From Lampris incognitus (taxonomy: Eukaryota; Chordata; Actinopteri; Lampriformes; Lampridae), in assembly GCF_029633865.1 (NCBI RefSeq), contig NC_079221.1:1607215-1671214 (forward strand): 64,000 nt of DNA, read 5' to 3'. The first letter of the stretch is position 1, and the number at the start of each line of letters is the position of its first letter. The position numbers and the translations under genes are program-made. The notes beneath the pieces are model-generated. The model saw only the letters and a program-made list of their open reading frames with translations. It was not told the DNA's origin and made no database searches. Below, piece by piece: positions 2,352-48,275 of the stretch.

Positions 2352-5300
2352 CTGTGGAGATCAGAACATCAATTAGACAAAGTCCCTGTCTGGCAGCGGT
2401 GCTAATGATACCACAGAGTGATATACCTCTGCAGCACTAGAGCCACTGTGTGCTGTGTGACAGCGTCAAGACGGAGTGAAGGTTAACTGTGGGTTGAGAA
2501 GGTATTAGGTCAGAGAGTAAGAGAACCTTAAAGCACTGTAGAAGATAAGATCTCCATTTCTATTCTAGAAATGGCACAATTTAGTGCATGGAGCTATACT
2601 TCGGTTTTAGTTGGTTTTAGCTTTTGGGTTTGCAAAGATGGAGTATTCATTCGGTGGGTATTGATCACAGTCCAAAATTGCTCATTGATTCGGCCTCACT
2701 GAACTCACTATGCTGGAAAACCGAAATCAGTGTGTGATGAGATCCCTGCAGACTTGTTTGGACACACCACCTGTTTTGTCATGTTGGGTTTATATAAGGG
2801 CAAACTTGTTGTGTGCTCATATGCAACTTGTTGTTGTGTCCAGCCCACGGCTACATGTGGCTTATGTGAACGTACTGAACTTGTACGCATGCCTTGTTGT
2901 GACCTTATTCCTGCAGTTGTTTTAACAAGTCCGGTCAGACTGACTGGACAGGACTTACATGACAGGAAGTTACATAAGGTTTAAGCCGTGCGGCAACACA
3001 GTCATAGTGCCTTGCCAAGTATTTGGTGGCCACTTAATTCTATTCCTCCGTTTACTGTCTCCTCCCCAGTGGCGTGTTTGTCTTGCAGTCCATATTTGTG
3101 TGCAGATGAGAGGAAGTCAAATTATTTGTCAGTAATGTGTGCCAGGTGACAAGTTCGTGTCTGTCCAGAGCAAAGTTGATGACCCTACCGTCACACGCCA
3201 CCAAACCGGAGACCGCCATCTCCTCTTCCTCTCACCCTGCTGTCCGCTGCGGTGGCAGCTGGGAGGTGTTTTCACTGTTACTCAAACGCACTAACACAGC
3301 ACAAGAGCAAGACCTGGGCATGGGAGAGGGGAGGCGAGGGGAGGTCGTCACGCTTTGTTCCCCCCTCACACTTAGTTGTCATGTCAAATAAAAGAAGATA
3401 GCCTCGTGCACAGATACGCATTTTTGAATTTAAATGGCTAAGTTACAGTGTGCACTTGCCCTGTGGCTGGGTAAACTGTCGTGACCGCCAGACGCTACGC
3501 CTTCTGAACAATATGTTGTTTCAAATTCACAACCGAATGCAATTTAGTTTTGAATAAACCAGACTAATTCAAAGGTATTGGGGAAAAACAGGCTCTAATT
3601 GAGATAAACTGCATCACAACCGAAGTTTCTGCCTTTTTAAAATGGAATAAATCTTCCTGGCTAATTAGATTGATCAATATTCCAAATGGAAATGTCCAAA
3701 ATTCAAAACAATTACGGCTGAAAAGCCGAAAACAGAATTCCAATGAAACCAGTCATGCTTTTTGCATCGGTCACTTAAAGTGAACAAATCACCTCGCTGC
3801 ACTTTTACCTGACTCCTCTTCACCCCCAGGGGCGCAGCGCTGGAACGCTCACCGACAGCTGAGACACGAGGCTCTGGCGTCCACTTATTGCATCAAACAC
3901 ACAAAATTAATGAATAAAAAAATAAAAACCAAAACAAACAATTTTATTAAAATTTTAAAAAAAAAATTAATCACTCACTCGCTTTTGGGTGGCTGTTCAA
4001 GAAAAGCACCATACAGACAAGGCCTAGACGTTGTTTTGTGATGATGATGATGATGAGATTTTGATTTTTTTTTTTTTAAAAATCCCCCTTTTTCTCCCCA
4101 GTTGTATCCGGCCAATTACCCCACTCTTCCGAGCCGTCCCGGTCTCTGCTCCTCCCCCTCTCCTGATCCGGGGAGGGCTGCAGACTACCACATGCCTCCT
4201 CCCATACATGTGGAGTCACCAGCCGCTTCTTTTCACCTGACAGTGAGGAGTTTCACCAGGGGGACGTAGCACATGGGAGGATCACGCTATTCCCCCCAGT
4301 TCCCCCTCCCCCCTGAACAGGTGCCCCGACCGACCAGAGGAGGCGCTAGTGCAGCGAACAGGACACATACCCACATCCGGCTTCCCACCCGCAGACACCG
4401 CCAATTGTGTCTGTAGGGACGCCCGACCAAGCCGGAGGTAACACGGGGATTCGAACCGCCGATCCCCATGTTGGTAGGCAACAGAATGGACCACTACACT
4501 ACCCGGACGCCCCTTGATATATATTTTTTAGGTTCCCAGTCGCACTTTAAAGCCCATAACAGATTTTAGCTGTTTATCAACGGACACCTTCGTCCTTCTC
4601 CTCTATGCCTGTGCAAACACAACAAGGTGTGGTCTCATCAACTCTGCAGGTTCACTTATTTGTGTGCAAACACAACAAGGTGTGGTCTCATCAACTCTGC
4701 AGGGTCACTTATTTGTGTGCAAACACAACAAGGTGTGGTCTCATCAACTCTGCAGGGTCACTTATTTGTGTGCAAACACAACAAGGTGTGGTCTCATCAA
4801 CTGTGCAAGGTCACTTATTTGTGTGCAAACACAACAAGGTGTGGTCTAATCAACTGTGCAGGGTCACTTATTTGTGTGCAAACACAACAAGGTGTGGTCT
4901 CATCAACTCTGCAGGGTCACTTATTTGTGTGCAAACACAACAAGGTGTGGTCTCATCAACTCTGCAGGGTCACTTATTTGTGTGCAAACACAACAAGGTG
5001 TGGTCTCATCAACTCTGCAGGGTCACTTATTTGTGTGCAAACACAACAAGGTGTGGTCTCATCAACTGTGCAAGGTCACTTATTTGTGTGCAAACACAAC
5101 AAGGTGTGGTCTAATCAACTGTGCAGGGTCACTTATTTGTGTGCAAACACAACAAGGTGTGGTCTCATCAACTCTGCAGGGTCACTTATTTGTGTGCAAA
5201 CACAACAAGGTGTGGTCTCATCAACTCTGCAGGGTCACTTATTTGTGTGCAAACACAACAAGGTGTGGTCTCATCAACTGTGCAAGGTCACTTATTTGTG

Positions 5301-45867: not shown

Positions 45868-48275
45868 CTATAGGGGGGAAGACGTGCGGGGCCCCAGCGG
45901 TTAAACAGGGCGACACAAGAGGGGACATCACGGGGAAAGACGTGCGGGGCCCCAGCGGTTAAACAGGGCGACACAAGAGGGGCCATCAGGGGGGGGAAAG
46001 ACGTGCGGGGCCCCAGCGGTTAAACAGGGCGACACAAGAGGGGACATCAGGGGAAAGACGTGCGGGGCCCCAGCGGTTAAACAGGGTGACACAAGAGGGG
46101 ACATCAGGGGAAAGACGTGCGGGGCCCCAGCGGTTAAACAGGGCGACACAAGAGGGGACATCAGGGGAAAGACGTGCAGGGCCCCAGCGGTTAAACAGGA
46201 GGATACAAGAGGGGACATCACGGGGAAAGACGTGCGGGGCCCCAGCGGTTAAACAGGACGACACAAGAGGGGACATCAGGGGGAAAGAGGTGCGGGGCCC
46301 CAGCGGTTAAACAGGACGACACAAGAGGGGACATCAGGGGGGGAAAGACGTGCGGGGCCCCAGCGGTTAAACAGGGCGACACAAGAGGGGACATCAGGGG
46401 GGGGGGGAAAGACGTGCGGGGCCCCAGCGGTTAAACAGGACGACACAAGAGGGGACATCAGGGGGGGGGAAGACGTGCGGGGCCCCAGCGGTTAAACAGG
46501 GCGACACAAGAGGGGCCATCAGGGGGGGGAAAGACGTGCGGGGCCCCAGCGGTTAAACAGGGCGACACAAGAGGGGACATCAGGGGGGGAAAGACGTGCG
46601 GGGCCCCAGCGGTTAAACAGGGCGACACAAGAGGGGACATCACAGGGGGGAAAGACGTGCGGGGCCCCAGCGGTTAAACAGGGCGACACAAGAGGGGACA
46701 TCACGGGGAAAGAAGTACGGGGCCCAAGCGGTTAAACAGGGCGACACAAGAGGGGACATCAGGGGGAAAGACGTGCGGGGCCCCAGCGGTTAAAACAGGG
46801 CGACACAAGAGGGGACATCAGGGGGAAAGACGTGCGGGGCCCCAGCGGTTAAAACAGGGCGACACAAGAGGGGACATCAGGGGGGGAAAGACGTGCGGGG
46901 CCCCAGCGGTTAAAACAGGGCGACACAAGAGGGGACATCGGGGGGGGGGGGGAAGACGTGCGGGGCCCCAGCGGTTAAACAGGGCGACACAAGAGGGGAC
47001 ATCAGGGGGAAAGACGTGCGGGGCCCCAGCGGTTAAAACTGGGCGACACAAGAGGGGACATCAGGGGGAAAGACGTGCGGGGCCCCAGCGGTTAAAACAG
47101 GGCGACACAAGAGGGGACATCGGGGGGGAAAGACGTGCGGGGCCCCAGCGGTTAAAACAGGGCGACACAAGAGGGGACATCAGGGGGGGAAAGACGTGCC
47201 GGGCCCCAGAGGTTAAAACAGGGCGACACAAGAGGGGACATCAGGGGGAAAGACGTGCGGGGCCCCAGCGGTTAAAACAGGGCGACACAAGAGGGGACAT
47301 CAGGGGGAAAGACGTGCGGGGCCCCAGCGGTTAAAACAGGGCGACACAAGATGGGACATCGGGGGGAAAGACGTGCGGGGCCCCAGCGGTTAAAACAGGG
47401 CGACACAAGAGGGGACATCGGGGGGGAAAGACGTGCGGGGCCCCAGCGGTTAAAACAGGGCGACACAAGAGGGGACATCAGGGGGGGAAAGACGTGCCGG
47501 GCCCCAGAGGTTAAAACAGGGCGACACAAGAGGGGACATCAGGGGGAAAGACGTGCGGGGCCCCAGCGGTTAAAACAGGGCGACACAAGAGGGGACATCA
47601 GGGGGAAAGACGTGCGGGGCCCCAGCGGTTAAAACAGGGCGACACAAGAGGGGACATCAGGGGGAAAGACGTGCGGGGCCCCAGCGGTTAAAACAGGGCG
47701 ACACAAGAGGGGACATCAGGGGGAAAGACGTGCGGGGCCCCAGCGGTTAAAACAGGGCGACACAAGAGGGGACATCAGGGGGGGAAAGACGTGCGGGGCC
47801 CCAGCGGTTAAAACAGGGCGACACAAGAGGGGACATCAGGGGGGGAAAGACGTGCGGGGCCCCAGCGGTTAAAACAGGGCGACACAAGAGGGGACATCAG
47901 GGGGAAAGACGTGCCGGGCCCCAGAGGTTAAAACAGGGCGACACAAGAGGGGACATCAGGGGGAAAGACGTGCGGGGCCCCAGCGGTTAAAACAGGGCGA
48001 CACAAGAGGGGACATCAGGGGGAAAGACGTGCGGGGCCCCAGCGGTTAAAACAGGGCGACACAAGAGGGGACATCAGGGGGGGAAAGACGTGCGGGGCCC
48101 CAGCGGTTAAAACAGGGCGACACAAGAGGGGACATCAGGGGGGGAAAGACGTGCGGGGCCCCAGCGGTTAAAACAGGGCGACACAAGAGGGGACATCGGG
48201 GGGGGGGGGGAAAGACGTGCGGGGCCCCAGCGGTTAAACAGGGCGACACAAGAGGGGACATCAGGGGGAAAGACG
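45868..48275. repeat. About 60-bp CpG-rich minisatellite upstream of smarcal1
   Basis: About 40 units of 58-66 bp: GAAAGACGTGCGGGGCCCCA, GCGGTTAAAACAGGGCGACA, CAAGAGGGGACATCA, plus a run of 4 to 12 G that varies in length between units. The left third has TTAAACAGG and the rest TTAAAACAGG. Each unit carries four CpG and a GGGGCCCC palindrome. The array ends about 0.84 kb before the smarcal1 start codon. Frame-breaking G-runs keep ORFs short here. Confidence 0.97.

Follow-up and report, generated by a model that had tools for sequence, protein, structure and literature searches.

Minisatellite arrays near a chromosome end of Lampris incognitus and the transposon copies that preserve their unexpanded states

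The window analysed here is a 64,000-nucleotide stretch of the fish Lampris incognitus (NCBI RefSeq assembly GCF_029633865.1, contig NC_079221.1), which genome search places at C14:1607215-1671214 and which carries sequence of the genes marchf4 and smarcal1. The window begins 1.6 Mb into the chromosome-scale contig C14 (60,086,142 bp), whose start is the presumed chromosome end. Minisatellites with unrelated units crowd the marchf4 side of the window, and this high load probably reflects a compartment at the chromosome end where new tandem duplications form, and persist, at a high rate. The load belongs to the chromosome-end domain and is not a trait of marchf4, because samples from the distal 3.2 Mb of C14 equal the window in mean array cover. 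Three arrays, with units of 49, 63 and 60 bp, grew in the lineages of the transposon copies that hold them, as the sister copies examined have about one unit. Tens of sister transposon copies in this genome still show the ancestral single-copy state of these arrays.

Array load along the chromosome

Every array named in the original prediction, which was made from the letters of the window, is recovered by Tandem Repeats Finder (TRF). The estimate of about 20 kb of arrays in 44 kb agrees with the measured 21,174 bases, or 48% of positions 4608-48275; the list itself lacked a 75-bp array, a short 22/45-bp array and the two-piece state of the 53- and 51-bp arrays. Under the criteria of a study of Xenopus (units longer than 10 bp in at least 5 copies; PMC10794172), cover is 33.1% for the window, 48.3% for positions 4608-48275 and 0.5% for 48276-64000. 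The parameters of a study of Nothobranchius (PMC2688266) give 34.5% for the window.

The units were correctly described as lacking a common sequence. The top pair among 66 compared, the 46- and 63-bp units, beats all 200 simple shuffles, but reaches p = 0.022 on 5000 dinucleotide shuffles, which is not significant across 66 tests. One ancestral satellite is ruled out as the source, given that the units are unrelated and no pair is significant after correction. The expansions are less independent than was supposed: the 53- and 51-bp arrays are each one array cut in two, the 75- and 49-bp arrays lie in one long interspersed nuclear element (LINE), and the 63- and 60-bp arrays share a single dispersed element.

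The cluster had been presented as a feature of one gene with a regional cause such as late replication, recombination or subtelomeric position. The regional part holds, with support for subtelomeric position, since only 1.6 Mb of the 60.1-Mb contig separates the window from its end and twenty 10-kb stretches sampled from C14 0-3.21 Mb have a mean cover of 33.3% (median 21.1%, array present in 17 of 20), against 33.1% in the window. The one-gene part does not, as the distal 3.2 Mb shows the same mean cover; four of the arrays lie outside marchf4. When two array-filled samples (L010 and L014) are left out, the mean is 26.4%. A 182-bp satellite occupies 9.1 kb of the former (C14:100001-110000), and one 35-bp array spans all 10 kb of the latter (C14:800001-810000). 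At seven interior loci, 21,447 bases together, cover is 0%. The comparison of repeat density covered C14 end samples (33.3%) and 21 kb of interior sequence. Nine window units were also compared with sampled units of 16-200 bp, and only the 36-bp family recurs in the end samples (L018, L020 and L026); a 12-bp array in L009, outside this size limit, resembles the telomere-like block described below.

The smarcal1 body is, as predicted, free of arrays beyond microsatellite size: TRF reports rows of 2-3 copies only (at 57053, 58189 and 58211) and no minisatellite. An array-free stretch this long at the right end has a probability of P = 0.016 with 10 randomly placed arrays and of 0.004 with 12, when the LINE-internal arrays are kept. 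For a gap this long anywhere in the window, the values are P = 0.17 (10 arrays) and 0.054 (12 arrays). Taken alone, the contrast between the marchf4 side and smarcal1 is weak. The GC content of non-repeat DNA is 0.472 in the end samples versus 0.431 in whole interior loci, and 0.46 on the marchf4 side versus 0.405 in smarcal1 (p = 0.009; 13 and 10 kilobase chunks). The rise in GC fits, as an indirect sign, recombination-linked gene conversion.

Transposon copies and the unexpanded state

Two arrays of the window lie inside a LINE of the L1 type (17523-26602, plus strand, 9.1 kb), whose open reading frames (ORFs) are broken. Pfam domains are Transposase_22 (E 4.6e-7), Exo_endo_phos (8.8e-11) and RVT_1 (2.5e-34), and ORF2 matches LINE-1 ORF2p at E ~1e-101, compared with 5.6e-22 for the best R2 protein. 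The 5' end of the LINE coincides with that of most other copies, and its 3' part has AATAAA and a terminal A run as a short A-rich end. ORF1 contains five tandem 75-bp (25-codon) units in its coiled coil (17985-18368, plus strand, TRF), and the 49-bp minisatellite lies between ORF1 and ORF2 (19199-22188, 61 copies).

The 49-bp array is the clearest case of growth from a single unit. The query (18700-19300) ran from the end of ORF1 across the spacer and through the first two 49-bp units; it returned 163 candidates, of which the best 40 were scored, as in each genome search. In 38 of the 39 other copies the match ends right after one unit (query position 548-549), and in the remaining copy, L047, it ends within the single unit (538). 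Among the 40 scored, tandem unit matches occur in this window only. The site holds a one-unit gap in 18/18 other LINE loci with both flanks found and 61 units here. The single unit of the sister copies equals the array consensus, except for a T/G site, variable from one LINE copy to another, and private changes in a few copies, and 11 of the 61 array units are identical to either of the two single-unit forms. The expansion junction has at most 1 base of homology. Over the query, the listed LINE copies share 96-97% identity with the window copy, which makes a recent expansion from 1 to 61 units probable.

A dispersed element, termed E and delimited by genome searches (45542-48364, plus strand), carries the 63- and 60-bp arrays. 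The 63-bp array (43367-45614, 36 copies) sits at the left end of E, and the 60-bp array (45872-48275, 40 copies) interrupts it. With positions 45400-46200 as query there were 81 candidates, and among the best 40 the 39 other E copies begin matching at the last 63-bp unit, so these copies hold one unit; three of them, read directly, have one unit each. A second query (48100-48500) recovers the other half of E. Since both halves are found in the same copies, the two arrays share one host element, and the spacing between halves is 93-113 bases in 23/23 copies with both halves listed, versus 2,407 in the window copy. In the E copy L072, an imperfect repeat, GCTGGCTGACT / GCTGACTGACC, is spaced exactly 63 bases apart (manual count) and would be a natural slippage site for the 63-bp unit.

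Two further units are borne by transposon families and vary in number from place to place. The 75-bp unit ranges from 1 to ~73 in other LINE copies. Among 19 copies chosen without regard to the unit, more than one unit is present in 6 of 11 near ends versus 1 of 8 in the interior. A search with the unit itself (40 of 191 scored; the own locus and 7 unplaced loci dropped) gave at least 2 units in 18/25 copies within 5 Mb of an end versus 2/7 farther away (p = 0.050), although it favours many-unit copies because the query carries five units. The largest array (~73 units, C1:153089627-153095359) lies 1.9 Mb from the end of C1; if in frame, it would encode a coiled coil of ~1800 residues. Two of the LINE loci, L040 (C29:1.23 Mb) and L041 (C17:1.27 Mb), represent the same insertion with identical printed 5' flanks, so C29 probably represents either a haplotype that escaped purging or a duplicated version of the end of C17.

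The 36-bp array (34624-35183) is flanked by imperfect inverted repeats that form a dispersed element (34552-35307, plus strand; sequence comparison and genome search), for which no transposase or relative was identified. Window positions 1-101 are the end of another copy of this element. The array is common to the family, which has 3661 candidate places, and reaches 6.5 kb at C25:700496-706992 (contiguous matches) and 7.7 kb at C2:150148018-150155692, where the listed matches have a gap. Long 36-bp arrays lie within 7.5 Mb of an end in 34/36 cases (22.2% expected), versus 27/38 for the flank of the element (Fisher p = 0.008). It is partly shown that the 36- and 75-bp units attain long forms mainly near chromosome ends.

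Two arrays are older than the transposons inside them. The 53-bp minisatellite is in two pieces (4610-6454, 34.8 copies, also placed by a unit map; and 7734-8125, 7.4 copies) around a 1.3-kb hAT-type transposon (6455-7733, plus strand) with zf-BED (E 4.7e-11) and Dimer_Tnp_hAT (E 2.4e-19) Pfam domains. The 8-bp target-site duplication TGCAGGGT is at 6447-6454 and 7734-7741, and excising the element in silico restores the array in phase as an empty site. The element has no complete transposase and, at just 1.3 kb, is probably internally deleted. The LINE described above splits the 51-bp minisatellite (13006-17522 and 26609-27539) and is flanked by the 13-bp target-site duplication AACACTGGAGGGG (17510-17522 and 26603-26615). 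As each array is cut by a transposon with a target-site duplication, both predate the insertions. Since the LINE split the 51-bp array, its halves have diverged: the right piece has a 102-bp dimer organisation, and the marker of this dimer, CTTCTAATGAC, has 9 occurrences in that piece against none in the left one. Unit identity to the consensus in the left piece falls from 0.96 to 0.80 approaching the LINE, and its 95 units comprise 40 distinct variants. A genome search with the 51-bp unit found 2 candidate places, both inside the window. Targeting of tandem arrays by the LINE is not supported; among 19 loci whose 5' flanks span 248-624 bases (the window copy among them; array defined as at least 5 units, unit >10 bp), the own copy and L034 alone are inside arrays.

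The 46-bp minisatellite (31766-33337, 34 copies) adjoins the 3' end of a short interspersed nuclear element (SINE) at 33338-33732 on the minus strand, which was identified by sequence comparison and which we take, from its sequence features, to be of the tRNA type. An expanded SINE tail, as in the Xenopus system discussed below, was considered and is not supported: other SINE copies start after the array, and the 46-bp unit matches at this locus only, among 40 scored of 7103 candidates (mostly SINE copies). L019, which is 20 kb from the window (C14:1.587 Mb), has 6.9 tandem copies of a 24-bp SINE segment at positions 6682-6848, and the same segment is single in three window copies of the SINE (0, 1 and 2 mismatches), which adds a fourth example of growth from one unit.

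The telomere-like block belongs to a dispersed element (28765-30889, plus strand; TRF and genome search) that consists of a hairpin (28769-28821) followed by a block of degenerate GGTTA/GGGTTAA repeats (28885-30889). The block has 82 TTAGGG in 2 kb with a longest run of 2 units. The hairpin flank yields 1990 candidates, and just 1/38 other scored, placed copies is within 5 Mb of an end. An origin as a telomere relic is therefore unlikely and was rejected, in view of the lack of long exact TTAGGG runs and the dispersed flank.

Origin and growth of the arrays

The proposed mechanism has two steps. A short segment would first be doubled, across short direct repeats in the case of the 63-bp unit and with near-zero homology in that of the 49-bp unit, and the duplicate pair may then expand in unit blocks through unequal exchange or slippage, with growth favoured by subtelomeric recombination or break repair. 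Blocks of like unit types are longer than in shuffles (p < 0.02) in 5 of 10 array pieces, namely both pieces of the 51-bp array and the 49-, 63- and 60-bp arrays. Such block duplications suit unequal exchange or template-switch repair for some of the arrays, and growth by single-step slippage is also conceivable. No direct or inverted repeats of at least 7 bases within 40 bases were found at the edges of the 23-, 46-, 63- and 60-bp arrays or of the telomere-like block, and nothing beyond a 7-base inverted match at those of the 21- and 11-bp arrays. Tetramers of the Xenopus subtelomere are not significantly enriched (21 observed versus 14.9 in shuffles, p = 0.068). Most likely, the arrays are functionless by-products.

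A stronger and more tentative reading is that chromosome ends may be an active minisatellite nursery in which any short segment, unique or transposon, can reach tens of copies. With similar reserve, expansion may take place within the lifetime of a young insertion, for example the 49-bp growth from 1 to 61 units in a LINE whose best sisters differ by 3-4%. If so, transposon families of hundreds to thousands of copies would be built-in reporters of the place and speed of expansion. Because sister copies preserve the ancestral single-copy state, breakpoints, rates and position effects become measurable. These arrays bear on the birth of minisatellites and on whether subtelomeric recombination causes arrays or the reverse, a distinction described as difficult to resolve in the Xenopus study (PMC10794172).

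Several observations weigh against the chromosome-end explanation, and a position near an end does not suffice for array growth. A single-copy start is seen for the 49-, 63- and 60-bp units and not for those of 53, 51, 46, 23, 21 and 11 bp, and the other 5 of 10 array pieces have no block signal. LINE copies 0.16-2.8 Mb from contig ends keep one 49-bp unit, and 14/38 other placed E copies are within 5 Mb of ends, with arrays in no listed match. Expansion of the 49-bp unit in a source copy, before transposition to this site, is formally conceivable; no such sister is among the copies scored. The end bias of the 75-bp unit in unselected copies has p = 0.08 (Fisher) and 0.11 (Mann-Whitney). With a limit of 5 Mb, long 36-bp arrays (29/36) and the element flank (24/38) differ at p = 0.08, and their distances from ends are not different (Mann-Whitney p = 0.35). 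The interior density comes from 21 kb only, at loci centred on dispersed-repeat matches; smarcal1 is array-free at the same distance from the end, as are 3 of the 20 end samples. Transposons themselves crowd at ends (LINE 19/38 and terminal-inverted-repeat flank of the 36-bp element 24/38 within 5 Mb; 14.8% expected), so part of the array end bias belongs to them. The crowding of LINE copies may be insertion preference or retention. An end effect on array growth, separate from that on insertion, is likely but not settled.

It is unlikely that the whole genome is equally rich in minisatellites, with the window an average sample and chromosome position irrelevant. Tandem repeats reach 20.6% in Nothobranchius furzeri (PMC2688266), and the interior sample is as small as stated above; the absence of cover at all seven interior loci, the concentration of long 36-bp arrays near ends (34 of 36 within 7.5 Mb) and the 75-bp expansions, mostly near ends, speak for position. 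Slightly less probable still is a cluster produced by dense insertion alone, with arrays imported ready-made by transposons. Such import would account for the 36-bp array, common to its family, and for the telomere-like block, and it agrees with the concentration of transposons at ends, but the roughly single unit in examined sisters of the 49-, 63- and 60-bp arrays and the age of the 53- and 51-bp arrays, which predate the transposons that split them, argue against it.

A property of the marchf4 introns that promotes or keeps arrays, such as chromatin or a role in marchf4 regulation, is highly improbable. All large arrays of the window are in marchf4 introns or the gap upstream, with none in smarcal1; however, the load is similar in samples flanking the window on either side and throughout the distal 3.2 Mb, and the smarcal1 contrast is weak. 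The least probable explanation is an assembly artefact. Long arrays are difficult to assemble, yet those of the window are mosaics of many unit variants, as in the left 51-bp piece, and have clean flanks and target-site duplications. The chromosome-end compartment thus remains the preferred explanation of the load.

The window arrays appear, by analogy, to resemble known transposon-derived subtelomeric minisatellites, with unusually clear ancestral states. In Xenopus, a 52-bp unit from the tail of a SINE/tRNA-V element is amplified only in subtelomeric copies, and minisatellites cover 10.67% of X. tropicalis chromosomes (PMC10794172). The two systems share arrays near ends, units from transposon pieces that are unexpanded elsewhere and higher GC near ends. 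They differ in that one SINE unit occurs at many ends in Xenopus, whereas here three units each expanded in a single copy, alongside private arrays and two families carried by transposons; the recombination measurements are from Xenopus. Samples from 2009 put tandem repeats at 5.0% in zebrafish, 3.6% in tetraodon, 2.1% in stickleback and 1.7% in medaka, next to the value for N. furzeri given above (PMC2688266).

At least 23% of human minisatellites/satellites are transposon-derived (PMC3389668), and they likewise have a transposon segment as seed and expand locally. Unlike in the human case, the unexpanded state is read here from copies in the same genome and chromosome position was examined. 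Mouse L1 has a length-polymorphic region in ORF1 with 66- and 42-bp units (PMC3600994); the in-frame tandem units in the coiled coil and their varying number among copies are alike, while the unit of 75 bp (25 codons), the range of 1 to ~73 and the larger numbers mostly near ends are different. In Drosophila virilis, the Tetris foldback transposon and the TIR-220 satellite (PMC4079207) also link an inverted-repeat element to tandem repeats that grow into kilobase arrays. The fish element differs in its 36-bp unit between inverted repeats and in arrays that reach at least 6.5 kb. Among the papers listed by literature searches on minisatellite clusters (1 paper) and on marchf4, smarcal1 and tandem repeats (10 of 71), none describes this locus by title or abstract.

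Genes and other features of the window

The first coding exon of marchf4 is placed by ORF bounds at 39652-40230 on the minus strand, with further minus-strand exons near 12206-12330, 11600-11730 and 1990-2345. These exons are presumed to be marchf4 from residues of the RING and membrane parts, and Pfam gave no match in three scanned exon pieces. The smarcal1 body (approximately 49091-62500, plus strand) is consistent with HARP domains at 49.8 and 50.4 kb (Pfam). Intron 3 of marchf4 holds the 53-bp array, and intron 1 holds the telomere-like block together with the arrays of 51, 75, 49, 23 (27741-28171), 46 and 36 bp. Upstream of exon 1, in the intergenic gap between marchf4 and smarcal1, are the 21- (40590-40732), 11- (40906-41535), 63- and 60-bp arrays; the short 22/45-bp array is at 42914-43035. 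Rfam and tRNA scans of the window gave no match, and scans of viral contigs and prokaryote genome contigs found no relative.

Two arrays read as long open frames. The 49-bp array is open for ~1000 codons in three plus frames (19039-22247), and the 63-bp array for 649-815 codons in three minus frames (43145-45612). Open frames across arrays are a trap for gene prediction; the arrays are neither genes nor telomere relics. The 63-bp array has a GC content of 64% and a CpG observed/expected ratio of 0.05, and the ratio in the adjoining 60-bp array is 0.74.

The smarcal1 region contains sequences that resemble transposons. Inverted arms in an intron (55269-55812 and 55928-56469) are 544 bases each, 99.3% identical and separated by 115 bases, and carry a helix-turn-helix that resembles Tc1-type transposases. 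Apparent pieces of one LINE reverse transcriptase stand side by side in opposite orientations (57092-57409, minus; 57460-58146, plus); they resemble a 5'-inverted (twin-primed) insertion, with a Pfam RVT_1 match in the minus-strand piece only. Another dispersed repeat has three copies, 88-91% identical, at 4083-4513, 36467-36882 and 59623-60020.

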